Shown here piece by piece: positions 1,747-58,488 of a stretch of 58,488 bases of DNA; within the stretch, counting starts at the first letter, position 1; every line of letters starts with the position of its first letter. This DNA comes from Deltaproteobacteria bacterium (GTDB taxonomy: Bacteria > Myxococcota_A > Polyangia > JAAYKL01): positions 1 to 58,488 of the forward strand of contig JAFGQN010000049.1 of assembly GCA_016935665.1 (NCBI GenBank), given 5' to 3'. Under the pieces are notes generated by a model that saw nothing but the letters and a program-made list of their open reading frames with translations, did not search any database and had not been told where the DNA came from. A program made the position numbers and the translations under genes.

Positions 1747-2732
1747 ACACGGTACACGAAGCCAAAAAAGCGCGCTGGGACCGTTTGGAACGCCTGCTTT
1801 TGCAGCTGGAAAGAAAAGGTTCGGCGAGGTTGCCCGAAGACGAACTGGACGAATTTGTTCATTTGTATCGAACCGCGTGTGGGGATTTGGCCCGTTTGCG
1901 CAGCGACAGTCCGGGGCACAATCTGGAAGCCTGGCTCAATCAACTGGTGGCAAGGGGGCAAAAGATGTTCCGTCCCAGAGAGAAGGGGTCCTTTGCTCAG
2001 GTGCTGCACTTTTTTACGGTGGACTTTCCACAGGAGGTTCGGGCGCTGGGACGGGCGCTGGCGGTGGCCGCGCTGCTGTTTGGCGCGCCACTGCTTTTGG
2101 TGGGGGTGTATGTGTATCTGTTTCCGCAGGCGGCTTATAGTCTGGCAGCCCCCGAAGAGCTGGAGGCGTTGGCCAATGCCTATGCGGAAGGTCATGCAGG
2201 CGGGCGCTCGGAGAGCGTGGATTCGCTGATGGCGGGGTTTTATATCAATCATAATGTGGGGATTGCATTTCAGTGTTTTGCCACCGGGATTTTCGTGGCG
2301 CTGGGATCGGTGCTGGCGCTGCTGTTTAACGGCGTCATTATTGGCGCCATCGGCGGGTTTATCTGTGCCTCGGGATATGCCAACAATTTTCTGTCGTTTG
2401 TGTGCGGTCATGGGGCGTTTGAGTTGACGGCGATAGTGTTGTGTGGGGCGACCGGTATTCGTATCGGCATGCTGCTGGTGAATCCGGGCCCGTACACGCG
2501 ACTGGATGCGTTTAAGGTTCATGGCAAAAGTATTTTAAAAGTGGTGCTGGGCAGCGCGGCCATGTTAACGATTGCGGCGTTTATTGAGGCGTTCTGGTCG
2601 CCGTCGTCGGCGCCGGCGCTGGTGAAATATATCGTTGCGTTGGTATTGTGGACGCTGGTCATTGTGTACCTGTCCATGGCGGGGCGTCGTCGGGGGTTGG
2701 TTGAGACGGATACGGAGAGTGGTGCTGCATGA
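1743..2732 (+). CDS. SpoIIM-like (stage II sporulation protein M family) membrane protein
   Basis: The protein has 329 residues. An N-terminal charged helical part of about 95 residues (WDRLERLLLQLERKG, LYRTACGDLARLRS) is followed by several membrane helices: ALGRALAVAALLFGAPLLLV, a pair around NVGIAFQCFATGIFVALGSV, and later ones. This is the usual form of the SpoIIM/DUF95 family in non-sporulating bacteria, where it sits beside RDD, MoxR and DUF58 genes, as it does here. The name does not imply sporulation. It overlaps both neighbours by 4 bases (ATGA), so the operon is tightly coupled. The role is probably in an envelope process; this is inferred from context only. Confidence 0.82.
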   Translation: MNTVHEAKKARWDRLERLLLQLERKGSARLPEDELDEFVHLYRTACGDLARLRSDSPGHNLEAWLNQLVARGQKMFRPREKGSFAQVLHFFTVDFPQEVRALGRALAVAALLFGAPLLLVGVYVYLFPQAAYSLAAPEELEALANAYAEGHAGGRSESVDSLMAGFYINHNVGIAFQCFATGIFVALGSVLALLFNGVIIGAIGGFICASGYANNFLSFVCGHGAFELTAIVLCGATGIRIGMLLVNPGPYTRLDAFKVHGKSILKVVLGSAAMLTIAAFIEAFWSPSSAPALVKYIVALVLWTLVIVYLSMAGRRRGLVETDTESGAA

Positions 2733-3526
2733 AGATTTCCGACGCCAGCATTGATATTCGCCCCCGAAGTTCATCGGAAATCACGGATTTGGCGGTGTTG
2801 TTTTATCGCAAACATTTTCCACTGCTGTTTTCGTTGACAGCGATTTATGGATTTCCAGCCGTCATTTTGGCCATGAGTGTGCACTACTTTGTGCGCAGTG
2901 GATGGGTAACCCTGGGAACGCTGGCGCTGCTGTTGCCGCTGCTGTCCGGGGCAGTGGTCCTGGCGGCCAGCCGGATTGTGTTTGGCAGCGTGTTGACCGT
3001 ACGCGATGTGTTGCGATTGTATCGCCCGGTGTGGGCAAGGTATTTTGGGCGGCGGTTTGTGGAGAATATCGTGTCTCTGGCGCTGACGCCGGTGATTCTG
3101 GGATACGTGATGCATCTGAATTTTTCCTTTACGGGGCCCGTGGGGCTTTTGGAGCAGTTGCGCGGCAAGGAGCTGCGCATTCGCCGCAAGGGATTGTTGC
3201 GTCGCGGTGGGGGCAATGCCCTGGTGTTCGATTTTATTTCGGTGATGCTGGTGGCCCTGTTTACGGTGGGGGCCATCAGTCTGGTGGAGCTGATGCTGGG
3301 ATCGGTTTTCACGGTCTGGCAGGAAACGGGCATTCGAACCGAAGATGCCATGGATGATCCCTTCCGATTTGGCATTTGGATGGCGGTGGGAGTGATGGCG
3401 TATCCCATTTATGTGCTGGGATGGTTTTTCCGTTACCTGGACGCGCGCATTCGCGCCGAAGGATGGGATCTGGAGCTGGATTTTCGCCGTGCCGCCACCC
3501 GCCTGTCCAAGGGGGATGAGTCATGA
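2729..3526 (+). CDS. Polytopic membrane protein of the MoxR/DUF58 operon
   Basis: The product of 265 residues has about five hydrophobic stretches, for example FSLTAIYGFPAVILAMSVHY, LGTLALLLPLLSGAVVLAAS and IWMAVGVMAYPIYVLGWFF. It ends with a YLDARIRAEGWDLELDF motif. That tail is often seen in membrane proteins encoded beside DUF4129 genes, but no named family was recognised with certainty. Four-base overlaps on both sides place it firmly in the operon. It is probably an inner-membrane partner of the neighbouring SpoIIM-like and DUF4129-like proteins. Confidence 0.75.
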   Translation: MKISDASIDIRPRSSSEITDLAVLFYRKHFPLLFSLTAIYGFPAVILAMSVHYFVRSGWVTLGTLALLLPLLSGAVVLAASRIVFGSVLTVRDVLRLYRPVWARYFGRRFVENIVSLALTPVILGYVMHLNFSFTGPVGLLEQLRGKELRIRRKGLLRRGGGNALVFDFISVMLVALFTVGAISLVELMLGSVFTVWQETGIRTEDAMDDPFRFGIWMAVGVMAYPIYVLGWFFRYLDARIRAEGWDLELDFRRAATRLSKGDES

Positions 3527-4587
3527 GAATTGTGGCAAAATTCCCCGTCGATAACGGCGAAGGCAAACGCGTTGCTTTTTCATCCTCAAATAAATGTAGG
3601 GTCCGGGGTTTATCCCCAGCCGCTGACCGAACTCGGCGGCAGATAAACTACCGCCCTACAGATTCCCTGCAATCTCTGTGTTTCAGGGTCGTTTTTGGGA
3701 TGCTTGTTTTTTTTCTGCACACCTCTGTTGCCACTGCCGCCGGCAAGCCTCCCAATTCAAAAGTGACCAAAGAAGTCGATGACATTACTGCTGATTCGGG
3801 ATACCGGTGGCTTCGGGAAGGGGACGCCCGTCGCTCGGGCGATTTGCAAAAAGGCCGATTTTCAGGCAAAGGGGGCCCTGGCGGCAAAGGCGGTGGCATG
3901 CCAGACGCCGAATCCTCCGAAGGCTGCAGTTTTGAGCCCAATTTTCAGGACTGGGATCCGCCGGAAGCCGACGCGGACGACGGCTGCGGCAACAGTGACT
4001 CGCCCGATTGCGCCTGTGATCCCGATATTGGCAGCTGCAACTGTGACCCCACCATTGGCAATTGCGGTGCGTGTGTGCCGTCCCCGGGCGCCCTTGTGCC
4101 GCTGGGGTATCTCCTTGGTGGACTGGTGCTGGCGGTGATTGTCTTTTTTGTGGTACGTGCGCTGATATTGCGCATGCCCAGTGAAGACACGCCTCTGAAT
4201 ATGGAAGACGTCGATTTCGATGAAGAGGATATGCGCGTTTCCAGAATCCATCGCGTGGACCCTGCCAGCCTGCTGGACAGAGCCAATGAAGCGGCCCGAA
4301 CCGGGGATTATAAACGCGCTGTGGGCTATCTGTACTTGCTGTCGCTGTCCATTCTGTCGCGGGGGGGCATTGTCGAACTGGAAAAATCCACCACTAATTG
4401 GAATATTTTACGCCAGACATTTAAAAATGGCGGTCCCGATGTGGCCATGAAGATTATTGTGCGGCACTTTGAGGATTTGTTCTTTGGCAACAAATCACCC
4501 ACATTTGAACGATACGAACAGGTGCGGCAAAATGTGACCTCCAGTCTGTTGCCGCTGGAGAAGGAGGCGACCCATGAGAGCAGCTGA
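3523..4587 (+). CDS. DUF4129-like membrane-anchored protein containing a REP-like insertion
   Basis: The protein has 354 residues if it starts at the coupled ATG 3523. A signal-like hydrophobic stretch (FGMLVFFLHTSVATAAG) appears only at about residues 58-73. In front of it lie about 24 residues of ordinary sequence and 22 residues encoded by a palindromic element (3595-3660). An in-frame ATG at 3700 could serve as an internal start. Next come a Gly-rich part, a Cys/Asp-rich stretch (CACDPDIGSCNCD), a membrane helix near residues 190-215, and a C-terminal helical domain. That domain contains ANEAARTGDYKRAVGYLYL and WNILRQTF, as in DUF4129. It overlaps the next gene by 14 bases. Confidence 0.75.
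   Translation: MRIVAKFPVDNGEGKRVAFSSSNKCRVRGLSPAADRTRRQINYRPTDSLQSLCFRVVFGMLVFFLHTSVATAAGKPPNSKVTKEVDDITADSGYRWLREGDARRSGDLQKGRFSGKGGPGGKGGGMPDAESSEGCSFEPNFQDWDPPEADADDGCGNSDSPDCACDPDIGSCNCDPTIGNCGACVPSPGALVPLGYLLGGLVLAVIVFFVVRALILRMPSEDTPLNMEDVDFDEEDMRVSRIHRVDPASLLDRANEAARTGDYKRAVGYLYLLSLSILSRGGIVELEKSTTNWNILRQTFKNGGPDVAMKIIVRHFEDLFFGNKSPTFERYEQVRQNVTSSLLPLEKEATHESS
3595..3660. repeat. REP/MITE-like palindromic element inside a coding region
   Basis: The 66-bp element begins TGTAGGG (3595-3601) and ends with its exact reverse complement CCCTACA (3654-3660). Inside are two further hairpins: GGGG-TTTAT-CCCC at 3605-3617, and GCCG (3619-3622) pairing with CGGC (3634-3637). The left phrase GTTTATC is mirrored by GATAAAC on the right. 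Its length is a multiple of three and it has no stop in the gene's frame, so it is read as 22 residues near the start of the DUF4129-like protein. Elements of this TGTAGGG...CCCTACA type are scattered repeats in many genomes. No second copy was seen in this window. Confidence 0.7.
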
Positions 4588-30065: not shown

Positions 30066-31310
30066 TTATTGAACCCGGGCATCCACGTAATCAACGAGCG
30101 ACTGGTCGCCCACTTCAAATGTGGCCTCTTCAGGGAAGACGTCAAGATACCATTTGACCTGCCATGCGCTTTCGCCGCCAGAGGGGATTGATTCCTGGGC
30201 ACCCATCATCTCCACTTCTTCATATATGCCACCGTTCACAAACAGTTGAATTTCAGCCTGATCATCAGGTCTGGCCGAGAATGGTTCATCCTTGAACGAC
30301 TTGATGAAAACAACATCCCCATTTGTATGCGCCAGCCAACCATCTGAACCATCGGCTTTGTATCGATAATTGCCTTCGTCATACTCCTCAGTATGATCCA
30401 TCCAGGTGACATTGTTCTCATCAGTAGTTGGAAGTGTTTTCATGTTTGAATCAGTTTCCTTAACAACGCCTGAACCGGTTGGGAAGAAAGTAATACCACC
30501 AGGAACAACACGAGAAATTTCCCAAGGGGCGAGTTCCTTGCTGCTACCATCGTCCACAATGACGTACTCCAGATTAATGGCAAAGTTCTCCATATCCGGG
30601 GAAAACCGTTTAACTACCTTGACTCCGAGTGACGAAATCGTCGTACTGGTCATTTCAATTGTGTTGGTGTCCTCATCAACCACAACTGAAATATCGGTTT
30701 TGTCAGAACCGTGTGAATCGGGCTCATAGTAGATTTCCTCTGGTGGCGGCCAGTTACCCCAGGACGTTTGTGGCGCAATCCAGAAGGTTGACCCATATCC
30801 ATTGGGGGCTTTTTTTTCGGATAGTATATTTTCGTTATTTAATGCAAATGTTGTTATCAAGCCGCCCTCATCGCCTGTACATTCAAACAAGAGCGTATCA
30901 GCTCCTTTGGTCATCTCCAGTGCAAATATCCCCCCTGACCGTTTAATCGGCAAAATCAGCTCAGTTTCTTCGCTGGCAGATTCTGTATCAGTACTGCCTT
31001 CAGAATCGGTATCAGTGCCGGTGTCGGATTCATCTTCAGAATTGCTGTCGGTATCTTTTTCTGAATCTTCGTCAGCATCACTGTCGGAATCAGAGTCTCC
31101 ATCCGAATCGCTGTCCGAGTCACTGTCTGAATCCCCGTCGGTGTCGCCATCTGAGTCACTGTCAGTGTCGCTGTCCGAATCTCCGTCAGAGGAAAGGTCA
31201 GAGACAGGCCTGTTTTGACTGCCGTCCCCCCCGCTACACCCTGCAACTTGCAGGAATGTAAACAAAGTGAAAAACAATGCCATAGCTACAATAATTGCTT
31301 TGATTGCCAT
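30066..31310 (-). CDS. Asp/Ser-linker lipoprotein with mutarotase-like (DUF4380-like) domain
   Basis: The product has 414 residues. A lipobox (LQVAGC) lies at about residue 25. Residues about 38-115 form a nearly pure Asp/Ser/Gly/Thr linker made of 6-base DNA units. The rest is a beta-sandwich-like domain with phrases such as YGSTFWIAPQTSWGNWPPPE, LEYVIVDDGSSKELAPWEIS and EVEMMGAQESIPSGGESAWQ. These recall DUF4380 and galactose-mutarotase-like domains that bind or act on sugars. This assignment is moderate. It converges with the PD40 lipoprotein gene. It is probably exposed at the cell surface. Confidence 0.68.
   Translation of the reverse strand: MAIKAIIVAMALFFTLFTFLQVAGCSGGDGSQNRPVSDLSSDGDSDSDTDSDSDGDTDGDSDSDSDSDSDGDSDSDSDADEDSEKDTDSNSEDESDTGTDTDSEGSTDTESASEETELILPIKRSGGIFALEMTKGADTLLFECTGDEGGLITTFALNNENILSEKKAPNGYGSTFWIAPQTSWGNWPPPEEIYYEPDSHGSDKTDISVVVDEDTNTIEMTSTTISSLGVKVVKRFSPDMENFAINLEYVIVDDGSSKELAPWEISRVVPGGITFFPTGSGVVKETDSNMKTLPTTDENNVTWMDHTEEYDEGNYRYKADGSDGWLAHTNGDVVFIKSFKDEPFSARPDDQAEIQLFVNGGIYEEVEMMGAQESIPSGGESAWQVKWYLDVFPEEATFEVGDQSLVDYVDARVQ
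30990..31200. repeat. Hexanucleotide-type repeats coding for an Asp/Ser linker
   Basis: The minus-strand gene here reads GAT/GAC followed by TCx or GGx again and again, giving DSDSDGD-type protein. The DNA repeats are imperfect, which suggests growth by slippage and later drift. They are coding, not an array of spacers. Confidence 0.7.
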
Positions 31311-36045: not shown

Positions 36046-38568
36046 ATGAAGAATTATTTATTAAATGTTATTTACAGGGATTATTTAGCTATGCGTTTAT
36101 TTTTGGTTATTTTGCTTTTGGCTGCGGTGGCCTGTTCCGAATCCAATCCTGGAAATGGAGAAAGTGGTGGAAAAGGTGGCAAGTCCGGCACTGACAGTGA
36201 TGCGGACGGTGACGGCGATGTGGATGGGGATGTGGATGGCGATGGTGATGGAGACGGCGATGGAGACGGCGATGGTGATGGCGATGGGGATGGCGATGGA
36301 GACGGTGATGGCGACGGCGATATCGAGTGGCCCAATTGGCCATTTGGTGATTTCACAGGCAGTGACGGCGGAGGACTGTATACCGATGGGTTTTGGGGAG
36401 ACGACGGTGTCTGGTACCAGTCCCCGGAATTTTGCAAACCGCCACCATTTCCGGATGAAGCCAGCTGCAAAGGGGAACAGGGTTTGTGGGCACATGCGTT
36501 GCAAATGGCGCTGTGGTTTTTTAATGTAAATAAGTCCGGGAAAGACGCTTATTGTAAAGACGTACAGTGGCGAGGTCCTTCTCATGTCAGCGATGGCCAT
36601 TTCAAACTGATCGCGGATGATCCCAATGGGGTTAATATGTCTGCTGCGTACATTGCGAAATATCGCGATGTTTTTGATCCGGATGGCAATGGTGAGGTGG
36701 ATTTGTCCGGTGGATATTATGATGCGGGCGATTTTATCAAATTTACACTGACCACTGGATTTATGGCATCGACAGTGGCGTGGACCATGTTCGAATTCCC
36801 CGAAGCATTTATTAACACGGGGTTGGATGGCGAAGCCATGGACCAGGTGATTTGGGCATCCAACTGGTTTTTGAAAAGCACATTTATCGAAGATAAATCC
36901 TTGCCAGTGGAGCAGTGGAATGTGGTTGGCTTTGCACATCAGGACGGCAGCCCTTCAGACCATTCCTGCGGCTGGTTCCCACCTGAATTGCGAACGCCGG
37001 AAAAATGTCCCCGAATGGCATATTTTGCAACCCACGAGAATCCCGGCGCGGATGTAACCGCTTCTGCAGCAGCGTCTCTTGCGCTGACGTACCTTATCAC
37101 CAAAGGCAATGATCCGGACTATGCACAGAATGCTCTCAATCACGCTATCGCTTTGTATAACTTTGCGGCGCAGTATCCGGATACGACCGCGAATGGCAAT
37201 GGCGGATTGTACGAGTCAGAGTACGCCTGGGATGATTTGGGGTGGGCTGCGGAATGGCTGTATGAGGCCACAGGAGATGAAAAATACTTCGAAGACGCAG
37301 TGAATTGGACTTACAATTTTCCAGGGTTTGATAAGACGTGCGTAGATCAGTTAATTAAATGGGACACTTTTTCTGAGACCAATGCCTGCTGGAGTGAAAG
37401 CTGGACACATGTCTGGAATTCCGTGCGTTCCGGTCTTTTTGTTCGACTGGCAGCTTCCATGGCCAAGGCTGGCAACGAATATGCAAATCTGTTTCAGATG
37501 ATAGCCCGAATCGACACCATGGGCTGGGTCGATGGACCTCACACCCCACAGGGATTCGCTACCAAGGTGGACGTGAGCTGGGGATCCGCCAGATACAACG
37601 CCGCTGGACAATTGGTGGCAATGGTATACGCCAAACATTTCCCGGATGATCCGGAATCTGAGAACATCAAGAAGTGGGCAAAGCGACAGTCCATGTATTT
37701 GTTGGGTGACAACCAGGTAAACGGCGATCCGGAGGGCAAAAGTTTTATGATGGGATTTACGGATATTTCACCCAACTATCCTCTGGAACCCCATCATGCG
37801 GCCGGACACGCAACGATTTACGGCGAACCAGGCAAACCAGATGAAAACAGGCACATTTTATGGGGAGCCCTGGTAAATGGACCGTCAGGTGAGGATACAC
37901 ACGAGGATGATCGTGATGACTTTGCCGCCAATGAGGTAACCATAGATTACAATGCGGCCTGGGTGGGTGCGTTGGCCGGGAACTATGTGAATGATGGAGC
38001 AAAGGGATGTCCAGACCCGGATTTCCCGCCTGTTGAGCCGCGCATTGATGAATTTTACACCATGGCTCAGGTGGATTCTGTTGGAGACTGTCGAACGCAG
38101 GTGACGGTGGATATTATTAACGAGTCCATTCATCCGCCAAGATTCAATGAACATTTGTCCGCCAGATATTATATTGATGTGACTGACTTAACATCAGCGG
38201 GAATTGACCCTGCGGGTATGACAGCGTCAATCATTCACGACAACAGCAGCCAGACCCCATCTACCATCGAAGGACCGTTCCCTTGCGAAATCAATGGCGA
38301 CATGTGGTACTTCAAAATTGGGTTTGAAGGTCAGCAGTTCTGGGGGGCAACGACCTGGTTGGATGCACCCCGTACTGTTCAGCTGGATTATGGTGTGGCC
38401 AATACGGGCAACTGTATCTGGGATGGCAGCAATGACTACAGCTTTGAAGGCTTAACAAGTGAAAAGAAAAAAACACCACACATCACCGCATACGGAAAAG
38501 ATGACAAGCTTCTCTGGGGGGAAGAGCCGGAGTGTCACGAAGTACGCAGTGTAATCTGGGTGGAATAG
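36046..38568 (+). CDS. GH9 cellulase with CBM3c-like module, predicted lipoprotein
   Basis: The product has 840 residues and should cut beta-1,4-glucan (cellulose). A lipobox (LAAVAC, near residue 29) follows a hydrophobic stretch; the true start may be ATG 36091. Residues about 54-92 are an Asp-Gly repeat linker. The GH9 domain spans about residues 140-650: LQMALWFFNVNKSG, the base region GGYYDAGDFIKF near residue 225, EPHHAAGHA, and the acid Glu in FAANEVTIDYNAAW near residue 630. The last 180 residues (PRIDEFYTMAQVDS to the end) resemble CBM3c, which helps processive cutting in Cel9A-type enzymes. A membrane-held GH9 is less common than a secreted one. Confidence 0.9.
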   Translation: MKNYLLNVIYRDYLAMRLFLVILLLAAVACSESNPGNGESGGKGGKSGTDSDADGDGDVDGDVDGDGDGDGDGDGDGDGDGDGDGDGDGDGDIEWPNWPFGDFTGSDGGGLYTDGFWGDDGVWYQSPEFCKPPPFPDEASCKGEQGLWAHALQMALWFFNVNKSGKDAYCKDVQWRGPSHVSDGHFKLIADDPNGVNMSAAYIAKYRDVFDPDGNGEVDLSGGYYDAGDFIKFTLTTGFMASTVAWTMFEFPEAFINTGLDGEAMDQVIWASNWFLKSTFIEDKSLPVEQWNVVGFAHQDGSPSDHSCGWFPPELRTPEKCPRMAYFATHENPGADVTASAAASLALTYLITKGNDPDYAQNALNHAIALYNFAAQYPDTTANGNGGLYESEYAWDDLGWAAEWLYEATGDEKYFEDAVNWTYNFPGFDKTCVDQLIKWDTFSETNACWSESWTHVWNSVRSGLFVRLAASMAKAGNEYANLFQMIARIDTMGWVDGPHTPQGFATKVDVSWGSARYNAAGQLVAMVYAKHFPDDPESENIKKWAKRQSMYLLGDNQVNGDPEGKSFMMGFTDISPNYPLEPHHAAGHATIYGEPGKPDENRHILWGALVNGPSGEDTHEDDRDDFAANEVTIDYNAAWVGALAGNYVNDGAKGCPDPDFPPVEPRIDEFYTMAQVDSVGDCRTQVTVDIINESIHPPRFNEHLSARYYIDVTDLTSAGIDPAGMTASIIHDNSSQTPSTIEGPFPCEINGDMWYFKIGFEGQQFWGATTWLDAPRTVQLDYGVANTGNCIWDGSNDYSFEGLTSEKKKTPHITAYGKDDKLLWGEEPECHEVRSVIWVE
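36205..36321. repeat. Hexanucleotide repeats coding for an Asp-Gly linker
   Basis: About 19 tandem copies of a GAYGGN unit give the DGDGDG linker between the lipid anchor and the GH9 domain. Variation is mostly at third positions, with two GTG interruptions (Val). The repeats are coding and in frame, and likely vary in number between strains. Confidence 0.85.
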
Positions 38569-38577
38569 AGGGAGATT

Positions 38578-40017
38578 ATGAACAGACTATTTGCAATTTT
38601 TATTTTAATGTTCCTGTTGGTTGCCTCTTTGGGATGCAGCGGCTCAGAAGAAAACAATTCCGGTTCGAGCGATTTGGATTCGGATAGCGGTGGCGACGGT
38701 GATTCGGACAGCGATGGTGATTCGGATTCGGATGGTGATGGCGACAGCGACGGCGATTCGGATAGCGATGGTGATGCCGATGGCGATGGGGACGATCAGT
38801 GTGCGGATTTCCCCTGGGATGTGGAAACCAAACCCATCAATCTGCTGGTACTCCTCGACCGTTCCAAGTCAATGCAGAACTATACTGTCGATGACGGTTC
38901 AACCTATGCGGAGGTGGTGCAGGCAGCCATTGATGCCATTGTGCTGCAGCATACGCAGTCGGGTATCATTAATTTCGCACTGAACGTATTTCCGTCTCCG
39001 GAGATGTGTGACGCGGAATACGGAAGCCAGCCTGCGGCCCAGCAGGCTCCGGAAATTCAGTGTCAGGCAGCGAGTCAGTTCGTAAATGCGGATAATCCCT
39101 ATCGTGATCCCATGGTGCCGTTTGCGGAAACCATTACCCTGGATACCTATGCTGCGATTCAGACGGTGTTGGGAGAGGTGGGCAATTGCGGTGGAACACC
39201 CATGTCCGGCTCGCTTAAGTGGGCCAAAGCGTATCTGGACACTCTGTCGCTCGAAAACGACACATATGTGTTGCTGGCCACGGATGGCGCTCCCGGCTGC
39301 AACCCACATATTGATTTCACCAATTCTGACGAATGCAAGTCGGCATCTGCCAATCCGGATATTGTGCCTGCTTCTCCGGAAATGTGCCTGGATGACCACG
39401 ATACGGCCCGTGCTGTATACGAATTGGCACAGGCTGGGTACAAAACGTTTGTGGTGGGGGTAGGCAAAGACGTTGAGGTATTCTCAGACGTCATGGATGT
39501 GATTGCATATTGGGGAACTCACGCTGTGACGGATGAGCCGGATTTCAATAAGATTCCGGATGCTCCGGACGATGGCACCTGGTACTACCCGGCTGGGGAC
39601 GCCGAAACGCTGGCAGCGGCTCTTGAAGATGTGACCAATGAAGCGATTAGTTGTGTATATCAGGTCGAATGGGCGGGTGTTCCGGATTTGGATCCTGAGA
39701 CCAATAAAGAGATTCTGAAGTCCTGTTCCAAAATGCGGGTGTTTGGTGTGCCGGCTGGTGGTGGCGACAAGGTTGATATTGGGTACATGGAAGATTGCAG
39801 CGACGAAGATCCGGACAGCGGAAAATTGGGATGGACCTGGGAAGAGCTGGAAGGAGAGTCCTGGGATGCCGTCAAGGAAATCGGCGACACGAGCAAGTGC
39901 ACAAGCGTGAAACTCTGCAACAAAACATGCAACAAGCTCAAAACCAAACAGGGGCAAAAGGAATGGGATGGCATTTCTGCAACCTTCGGTTGTCAGCCCA
40001 TCGTGATTGTTGAATAA
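38578..40017 (+). CDS. VWA-domain lipoprotein with Asp/Ser/Gly linker
   Basis: The product has 479 residues. A lipobox (VASLGC) is near residue 20, and residues about 30-75 are a DSDG-type linker. A VWA domain starts near residue 87 with INLLVLLDRSKSMQNY (complete DxSxS site). It continues with CGGTPMSGSLKWAKAYLD and TYVLLATDGAPGCNP, so the metal site looks intact. A Cys-rich tail follows. It is 9 bases after the cellulase stop with GGGAG before its ATG, so both genes should be on one transcript. It may be a surface adhesion or assembly factor for the cellulase system (inference). Confidence 0.85.
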   Translation: MNRLFAIFILMFLLVASLGCSGSEENNSGSSDLDSDSGGDGDSDSDGDSDSDGDGDSDGDSDSDGDADGDGDDQCADFPWDVETKPINLLVLLDRSKSMQNYTVDDGSTYAEVVQAAIDAIVLQHTQSGIINFALNVFPSPEMCDAEYGSQPAAQQAPEIQCQAASQFVNADNPYRDPMVPFAETITLDTYAAIQTVLGEVGNCGGTPMSGSLKWAKAYLDTLSLENDTYVLLATDGAPGCNPHIDFTNSDECKSASANPDIVPASPEMCLDDHDTARAVYELAQAGYKTFVVGVGKDVEVFSDVMDVIAYWGTHAVTDEPDFNKIPDAPDDGTWYYPAGDAETLAAALEDVTNEAISCVYQVEWAGVPDLDPETNKEILKSCSKMRVFGVPAGGGDKVDIGYMEDCSDEDPDSGKLGWTWEELEGESWDAVKEIGDTSKCTSVKLCNKTCNKLKTKQGQKEWDGISATFGCQPIVIVE

Positions 40018-56292: not shown

Positions 56293-57338
56293 TTTGTTCC
56301 ATTTTCGGTAAGGCTCTCCGGGCAGATAAGGGGGCCGTTCTGTTGCCGCCCGTAGCCCCCAGGCACCGGACAGGATCGTTTCCCATCATCTGGCGCAAGG
56401 CCCTTTTTAGCCTTCGTGTCACTTAAAGACCGGTTGTTTAATACTCGTTTGTCCGCACTTCGCGAAGGCGTTCTTGCGGATTGTCAATTCCAAAGATATT
56501 CCTAAACCGTCAACCCGCCAAAGCCCTGGCGACGGTGGGCCAACGTTGTTTTACGTTACTTTATACATCGAAACAAAGGGATTTGCATCAAATTACCAAA
56601 CCCCAACTTCGCGCTCGCACTGGTCGCAGTGATGCCGGGGGACGTCCTGGATATTTCACCTTCCGGTAAGCGCGCAGCGTCCACCTTCCCGCCGCGCAGC
56701 GACACTGCCTCAATTACCAATGCTCTTTCTCCAAAGTCTTTTTCTTTCTAAAATCGTCAGGGTGTCTCTTGGAATCACACGACTGCGAAGTGGGCCCCTG
56801 AACTCGCAAGAGAACGGTTTCCCAGTTCACATAGCATCCGCATCAGTATGCGGTAGCGGCGGTTTTCATAAAATAGCAACGGTGAGTCTGTTACAAAAAA
56901 AAAGACGATGAGACGAACGCATGACGATTCCGCGTGATAACTTTACCGTCCTGACTACGTCCCCCTTGTTCCCAAACTGTAATATCATATGATCGTATGA
57001 AGCAATCATGTCGCCTGATTGATCAAATAGCCGAAGAGCCATTTGCAGATTGAAATAAGCAGAGCACCCAAACCGATGTTGTTGAAATCTCGTGACAAAT
57101 CGACTTTCTTTGCCTACAGCAAAGGCCGAGTTTCGGGTTTGTCACACCGGTCGGTACAAATTAAAGTCAATTCGATGATGCCGTAACAACTCTTTTGGGA
57201 AGACCGATGTTTATTGCTTCTTCACATATGCGTCGCGTACAACAAAACGACTTCCAGCGCTGGTTTTGGATGCACAGATGCATGAAAGGCTTGGCCCTTT
57301 TAAAACAAACACACATCATTCGACGATTGGCGCTTACC
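56293..57338. other. Gene-poor region before the RAYT gene
   Basis: This 1046-bp stretch has no convincing gene. It contains hairpins such as CTTCGCGAAG (56458-56467) inside CCGCA...TGCGG, and AAGGC/GCCTT near 56395-56415. It also holds the first copy of the 78-bp repeat (56808-56885). Short frames on both strands lack ribosome sites. The base composition and fragments suggest remains of mobile DNA. Confidence 0.45.
56808..56885. repeat. 78-bp direct repeat, copy 1 (REP-like)
   Basis: The stretch from AAGAGAACGGTTTCCCAGTT to AAAATAGCAACGGTGA matches 58411-58488 with only about five differences, all in one short patch. It contains a perfect hairpin CCGCAT-CAGT-ATGCGG followed by GTAGCGGCGG. 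It lies on one side of the RAYT-type gene. Confidence 0.85.
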
Positions 57339-58295
57339 TTACATAAACGCCGGTTTGTGTTTGGTGGGTGGATAGCTTCCTGGGGGCCATGGAAACGTGG
57401 TGTCAATGGACACGTGCTGATTCCGGTCTGTGTCGTTGAAATAAACAAACATCAGATGAACGGCATGCTTGTAGATGCCTACAAAAGTCTTGTACATTTT
57501 TTTAAAGTCCATTTTGGCGTCAGCGCAAAAGGATTTAAAGCGCGTTCGCGGCGACTGTTTGGGGGACCTGGGTCGGTCCTGAAATGATTGTTTTAATACT
57601 TTTTTCATGCCCAAAACCGGTTTGTTCAGGCGGGCCTTGCGATAGGCCACGGCGGCCGACTTAAAAAGGGACTGAATGAATTTCAACCGTGCGGATTCTT
57701 CCTGATTTTCAAGGAATGGCGGCGTGCTCAGTGTGAATTCAAAGGTCTCTTCAAATTCTTTTGGTTTAACGTTTTTATTGTGACGTTTTTTGTCGCCGTA
57801 CTTCGTTTTGTTAAGCCCTTTGCCTGTAATGGGCGTGTTGCAAAGCATATGAGGCACAGAACTGACACCGCCCCACTGCGTGGCGGTTGAGACGAGACCG
57901 GATTTCACCGCGTTGAGTGCCGTGTAGGCGTAGCGGTCCCAGAAGACCTCGTCACTGCTCACTGTATCCACAACGAGGTCGTGGTATTCCCGCTGCCAGA
58001 ACTTGCCTTTTCTTTTGATATTGCGATTGATGGCGCGAGCCAGGTTTCCCTGAAAGTAGTTCATAAACCTGGGCAGCTCTCCAGCTGGGTCTCTTAAGAG
58101 AATGTGAAAATGGTTCGAAAGAAAAATGAACGCGTATATTTCGATATGTTTACCGTGTTTGTTTTTCGATTTGGCCAGCCAGTACCGGATGGCTTTGTTG
58201 TTTTCCTTTGTGGGCAGCACAAAAAATCGCTGCTGATGGGTGCGATTGGTCACAAAATAAACGTAGTTCGAGTCATGAATGCGTAACGGTTTCAC
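57339..58295 (-). CDS. REP-associated tyrosine transposase (Y1_Tnp, RAYT type)
   Basis: The product has 318 residues. The HUH motif is FLSNHFHILLRDP near residue 60. The start (YVYFVTNRTHQQRFF) and GNLARAINRNIKRKGKFWQREYHDLVV match the IS200-like Y1 fold. A candidate catalytic Tyr lies in YAYTALNAVKSGLV. A C-terminal part of about 150 residues is basic. Such single-copy transposases act on nearby REP hairpins and not on classic IS ends. It is flanked by two 78-bp direct repeats that carry a hairpin. The start at 58295 has AAAGGAGG upstream. Confidence 0.85.
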   Translation of the reverse strand: MKPLRIHDSNYVYFVTNRTHQQRFFVLPTKENNKAIRYWLAKSKNKHGKHIEIYAFIFLSNHFHILLRDPAGELPRFMNYFQGNLARAINRNIKRKGKFWQREYHDLVVDTVSSDEVFWDRYAYTALNAVKSGLVSTATQWGGVSSVPHMLCNTPITGKGLNKTKYGDKKRHNKNVKPKEFEETFEFTLSTPPFLENQEESARLKFIQSLFKSAAVAYRKARLNKPVLGMKKVLKQSFQDRPRSPKQSPRTRFKSFCADAKMDFKKMYKTFVGIYKHAVHLMFVYFNDTDRNQHVSIDTTFPWPPGSYPPTKHKPAFM

Positions 58296-58410
58296 TGGCA
58301 GCCTCCTTTGGTTTGGCTACCCCTACTCGGCCGTTTTTTTAGATTTGTATAAAAACTTAAAAGATGAATGATTTTAGGCATCTCGGTTTGGGTGATTTAC
58401 CTGTCATGCC

Positions 58411-58488
58411 AAGAGAACGGTTTCCCAGTTCAAATTGTATCCGCATCAGTATGCGGTAGCGGCGGTTTTCATAAAATAGCAACGGTGA
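58411..58488. repeat. 78-bp direct repeat, copy 2 (runs to window end)
   Basis: This copy matches 56808-56885 in the same direction. It reaches the last base of the window, so the true repeat may continue. It lies upstream of the RAYT start, about 1.6 kb from copy 1. Confidence 0.85.

Follow-up and report, generated by a model that had tools for sequence, protein, structure and literature searches.

The window analysed here is a 58,488-nt stretch of DNA from a Deltaproteobacteria bacterium. Near its beginning lies an operon in which a gene encoding a putative exported membrane protein is accompanied by RDD, SpoIIM, DUF4350 and MoxR-type ATPase genes (Table 1). The start codon of this gene overlaps the stop codon of its upstream neighbor as ATGA, and the same ATGA coupling is found at junctions 1743 and 2729. 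The product matched no Pfam or NCBIfam family. As originally predicted, a 66-bp element with the edges TGTAGGG...CCCTACA is positioned exactly at 3595-3660, where it fills 22 codons in frame 0 of the 3523-4587 reading frame. Of the 24 codons that separate the start from the element, the first few probably represent the original n-region of the signal peptide.

Table 1. Coordinates of the element, its host gene and associated features in the window.
Feature	Position	Strand	Description
Upstream operon gene	2729-3526	+	Membrane protein of 265 aa without Pfam match; identity to orthologues up to 66%
Ribosome-binding site AAGGGGG	3509-3515	+	7 nt before ATG 3523
Element-containing gene	3523-4587	+	354 aa: N-terminal extension, signal-like helix, cysteine-rich part, one more membrane helix
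Start-to-element stretch MRIVAKFPVDNGEGKRVAFSSSNK	3523-3594	+	24 codons, coding-like codon usage
REP doublet (REPIN)	3595-3660	+	66 bp, in frame, encodes CRVRGLSPAADRTRRQINYRPT
REP 1 hairpin	3603-3619	+	CCGGGG-TTTAT-CCCCAG, one C.A mismatch, tag TGTAGGGT ahead
REP 2 hairpin	3635-3655	-	GGCGGTAG-TTTAT-CTGCCGCC and tag GTAGG, both read on - strand
Displaced signal-like helix FRVVFGMLVFFLHTSVATAA	3682-3741	+	Aligned to orthologue signal peptides
Candidate internal ATG	3700-3702	+	Signal peptide from here without basic residue

The 66-nt element folds with -34.7 kcal/mol, whereas shuffled sequences average -19.6 (z -4.7) and none of them does as well. We found compensatory changes in both short hairpins of the aligned copies (covariation of 0.171 vs. 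0.099 in shuffled alignments, 0/500 as high), while a single long 66-nt palindrome was ruled out as the conserved structure, its covariation being no better than in shuffles. The element is thus an inverted pair of GTAG-type REPs, and this pair is the repeated unit seen in the aligned full-length copies. TGTAGGG adjoins both hairpins, which gives each the GTAG tag beside a short hairpin that characterizes GTAG-type REPs. The REP kinship suggested in the original prediction can therefore be stated more precisely: the element is a doublet of GTAG-type REPs, for which the genome encodes a cognate REP-associated tyrosine transposase (RAYT). Its description as one palindrome is better replaced by two inverted hairpins. 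No Rfam family was matched by the element.

Further copies, which the original prediction had proposed to look for, are abundant: blastn matched the element at 42 places in the same genome (the best 84-88% identical), and a covariance model gave at least 84 matches at E<=0.001, a lower bound with 133 of 2000 candidates scored. Given so many copies, the palindrome in the window is not due to chance. By a simple codon-usage gene call, at least 40 of the 47 examined copies are located between genes, and most long open frames crossing other copies look like non-coding extensions. The family is also present in both genus relatives and in three further genomes of the family, but absent from all searched genomes of the same class outside the family. 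The insertion had been thought possibly recent; this is not borne out, as the window element is 12-16% diverged from its closest copies (blastn), carries a C.A mismatch in the first hairpin and shows no recognizable flanking terminal repeats. It is best seen as an old member of a family of GTAG-type REP doublets (REPINs).

The transposase is encoded on contig C118 (NF047646, 97 bits at a cut-off of 80). Exact REP 1 copies in inverted orientation flank its gene on either side, and it is the cognate RAYT of the window family. A simple scan of RAYT relatives in five other genomes found no GTAG-hairpin flanks. The C118 RAYT gene with its two REPs (L012:1260-1960, G000) appears nested in an older MITE, whose halves lie on either side.

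Many copies are embedded in a larger unit of some 120-140 bp, whose ends read CAGGGCAATCG.../...CGATTGCCCTG and which is bordered by target duplications of 9-10 bp; examples of these are AGGGACAGCG, ATTAATGGTC, CCAGGAAGA and ATTGTGCCAG. Flanking duplications of at least 80% identity were detected in 8 of about 15 arm-bearing copies, counted after double counting was removed, whereas shuffled pairing averages less than one. IS-type MITEs are therefore a second vehicle of the REP doublet, which forms their core. The loci concerned are L001:334-473 and many others, together with L076 and contigs C43, C124, C168, C174 and C217; many contigs break within a near-identical young MITE subfamily. Five contig ends share 18 bp of the MITE terminus but continue into another reading frame ending RCAYDPDYILEVLAA; this frame probably encodes an IS transposase, that of a presumed autonomous IS. 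ISAs1 was considered as the MITE source and rejected, the genome having no ISAs1 transposase match.

Alignment of orthologues, the other check proposed at the outset, showed that they lack the segment. In the orthologues of the family, the gene starts at this same junction, and the signal peptide is short. The addition of 22 residues, as initially assumed, describes the element itself, but the net difference is larger: the nearest orthologue (G002) has 49 codons fewer ahead of the first conserved motif, which corresponds to a net insert of about 147 bp, only 66 bp of it recognizable element. Compared with G002, the signal-like helix has likewise been shifted by about 49 residues away from the start, in agreement with the predicted displacement of the export signal. 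In G001, the contig begins within the gene, and the upstream gene is missing from the assembly. The window copy is in frame and stop-free in a gene whose orthologues lack the segment, as expected of a translated intragenic REP.

As to whether the element is in fact read by ribosomes, codon usage was scored on a scale where genes of the window average 0.26 bits per codon (sd 0.23) and shuffled sequences -0.11 (sd 0.24). Divided into two stretches of 12 codons, 3523-3594 reaches 0.32 and 0.37. Codon usage behind the insert (0.357 bits per codon) is normal for the genome, and the element's own codons, at -0.42 bits per codon, do not look coding. The element core is naturally stop-free in one frame, so the open frame alone is weak evidence of translation. 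Taken together, the coupled ATGA start, the strong ribosome site, the open frame and the coding-like codons before the element speak for translation from 3523 through the element rather than for initiation within the gene at 3700; of the two outcomes originally envisaged, translation from the coupled start is favored, though not proven, and a forced start at 3700 is disfavored. If the 3523 start is used, the peptides VAFSSSNK, GLSPAADR and QINYRPTDSLQSLCFR are to be expected. Caution is in place, because many N-terminal REPs may be extragenic, with start codons being misassigned (PMC3733652).

The genome has two more coupled genes for exported proteins, both TolC-like, in which the element lies in frame after the start codon and ahead of the mature protein. 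The first, on contig C109 (L154:1412-3076, G000), is located behind an RND-type gene and starts with AAAGGAGGCGGTGTG-ATG; its product reads MKRIFIAYAIF, then the REP insert, then ILLCLLSIAVPVYA. Its 78% identical relative in G001 (L191) has the same AAAGGAGG followed by an uninterrupted MKWIFKMLLFIGFCLCTIPLYA and is 47 codons shorter, so that the net insert is 141 bp. This pair provides the cleanest evidence for a copy behind a real start codon, within the signal-peptide code. In turn, the relative in G002 (L192) contains a different palindrome, AAATCCCCCC...GGGGGATTT, read KSPQPPFQGGAVEIPLAKGGRGIS, in frame in the same signal region. The second gene, on contig C121 (L034:130-1755, - strand, G000), has an ATGA start and a REP doublet in frame ahead of RNKLLVLAAVAVFLASG, with the first REP tandemly repeated in frame (42 bp, 14 codons); its G002 counterpart also has an ATGA start and a short signal. 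The peptides encoded by the REPs are basic, with net charges of +5, +8 and +7. Outside this genome, a variant REP doublet of 28 codons is present in frame in menD of G007 (contig C70, L174:460-2073, - strand), in a linker after the first domain, where no alternative start could account for its presence in the gene. An open frame also crosses a copy on contig C119, but there the gene probably starts behind the copy, and the frame through it would be non-coding.

In our opinion, the window most likely harbors an old GTAG-type REP doublet that was inserted behind the coupled start, in the signal-peptide code, and is translated from 3523. The sequences show the identity and copy number of the element, its two hairpins, the cognate RAYT, its absence from orthologues, the open frame and, for a sister gene, a start site that is conserved in the empty-site relative; translation, export with cleavage, and the route of insertion are inferred. 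The doublet family would have been spread by the RAYT of the genome (most likely), partly as cargo of IS-type MITEs, and one element would have landed a short way into an exported-protein gene, after its translationally coupled start. Because the insert has no stop and keeps the frame, ribosomes starting at 3523 would read through it, and the n-region of the product would be long and basic, stretching over about 53 residues before the old hydrophobic core. N-regions of signal peptides are basic. If export still works, the foreign residues would be cut off with the signal by signal peptidase, so an in-frame insertion would be cheap in this region, and tolerance would be accounted for without giving the element a function.

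It is also conceivable, but unlikely, that the element is an untranslated leader between operon genes, that ATG 3523 opens a fortuitous extension, with the true start at ATG 3700 or a rare CTG at 3676, and that the hairpins form a structured mRNA spacer. The reading frame resembles its orthologues only from about residues 44-78 onward, almost all copies are intergenic, the open frame through the C119 copy is probably non-coding, and the same start-calling error has been described for other genomes (PMC3733652). Yet the coupled start and ribosome site are located where orthologues start, the codons of 3523-3594 are coding-like, a start at 3700 would leave no basic n-region, and the C109 gene keeps its start, with the same AAAGGAGG, in the empty-site relative. 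That the insertion broke export and the gene is heading for loss, as the greater distance of the signal-like helix from the start might suggest, seems highly improbable, since the frame has stayed open over 354 codons with normal codon usage behind the insert despite the divergence of the element.

The mode of arrival is a separate matter, compatible with translation. Rather than as a RAYT-moved doublet, the element may have come as an entire IS-type MITE, with a length of about 120-140 bp to which the 9-10 bp target duplication adds, and its arms would since have decayed, a scenario that we regard as quite possible, although somewhat less than an even chance. Many copies reside in such MITEs with target duplications, the net inserts in the window gene and the C109 gene match a MITE plus duplication in size, and the nhmmer match to the window copy extends 5' to 3561. 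Against this, arm similarity is not significant (p ~0.2 on each side), so that a complete MITE could not be recognized, and the window copy has no convincing target duplication.

Intragenic REPs, including N-terminal ones (PMC3733652), REPINs (PMC3116915) and Rickettsia palindromic elements are already known, and the window family is a new one of a known kind. GTAG-tagged REPs, including REP dimers inside ORFs with in-frame and N-terminal cases, were described by Di Nocera et al. (2013; PMC3733652); like them, the present family combines a GTAG tag by a short hairpin, inverted dimers, high copy number, a mostly intergenic location with some copies in frame in genes, and tyrosine transposase genes with REP flanks. 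It differs in belonging to a deltaproteobacterial lineage and in its N-terminal copies, whose placement is supported by conserved starts and by a relative with an empty site and which recur in signal-peptide code. In Pseudomonas fluorescens REPINs, studied by counting extragenic space, the inverted REP doublet is also the repeated unit, in a genome with a RAYT (Bertels and Rainey, 2011; PMC3116915); in contrast, the doublets described here differ in sequence, also occur inside terminal-repeat MITEs and are predicted to move. Rickettsia palindromic elements, as cited in PMC3733652, are likewise palindromes that have entered protein genes in frame, the N-terminal ones being reported as expressed; the likeness is one of working, and in the present family only few copies are intragenic. 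With IS-derived MITEs, copies elsewhere in the genome share terminal inverted repeats and target duplications, whereas the window copy lacks recognizable terminal repeats and the conserved core is the REP doublet. A limited literature search found neither a repeated signal-peptide position set against an empty-site relative nor a REP doublet as MITE cargo.

REPs owe their name to being extragenic, and N-terminal copies are mostly ascribed to misassigned start codons. The conserved coupled starts and the 78% identical empty-site relative would represent cases of an element truly behind a start codon. Similar insertions in three exported-protein genes imply that the signal-peptide part of a gene, being disposable, may be a safe landing place. 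More tentatively, and with rather more doubt than confidence, we propose that signal-peptide code offers mobile elements of palindromic type a niche in which they persist inside genes of this lineage: their basic, stop-free peptides would extend the n-region and be cut off with the signal, and operon-coupled exported-protein genes would gather insertions repeatedly, also from unrelated palindrome families, as the different palindrome in the G002 relative of the C109 gene suggests. The enrichment comprises three genes of one genome, and closeness to intergenic DNA, the usual site of REPs, may be partly responsible. If translation holds true, signal peptides would be a measurable landing zone for small mobile DNA, and a route for n-regions to gain new sequence while the mature protein is unchanged.

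Some other features of the window deserve mention. Close to the end of the window, a 325-aa frame encodes a Y1-type transposase domain (57873-58283, - strand). There is no REP of the GTAG doublet family around it, and a 79-bp direct repeat, 96% identical, is located nearby (56807-56885 and 58410-58488). Repeat blocks at 30980-31202, 36169-36364 and 38647-38806, with a spacing of mostly 12 or 18 bp and partly on opposite strands, likely encode Asp/Ser-rich repeat tracts.
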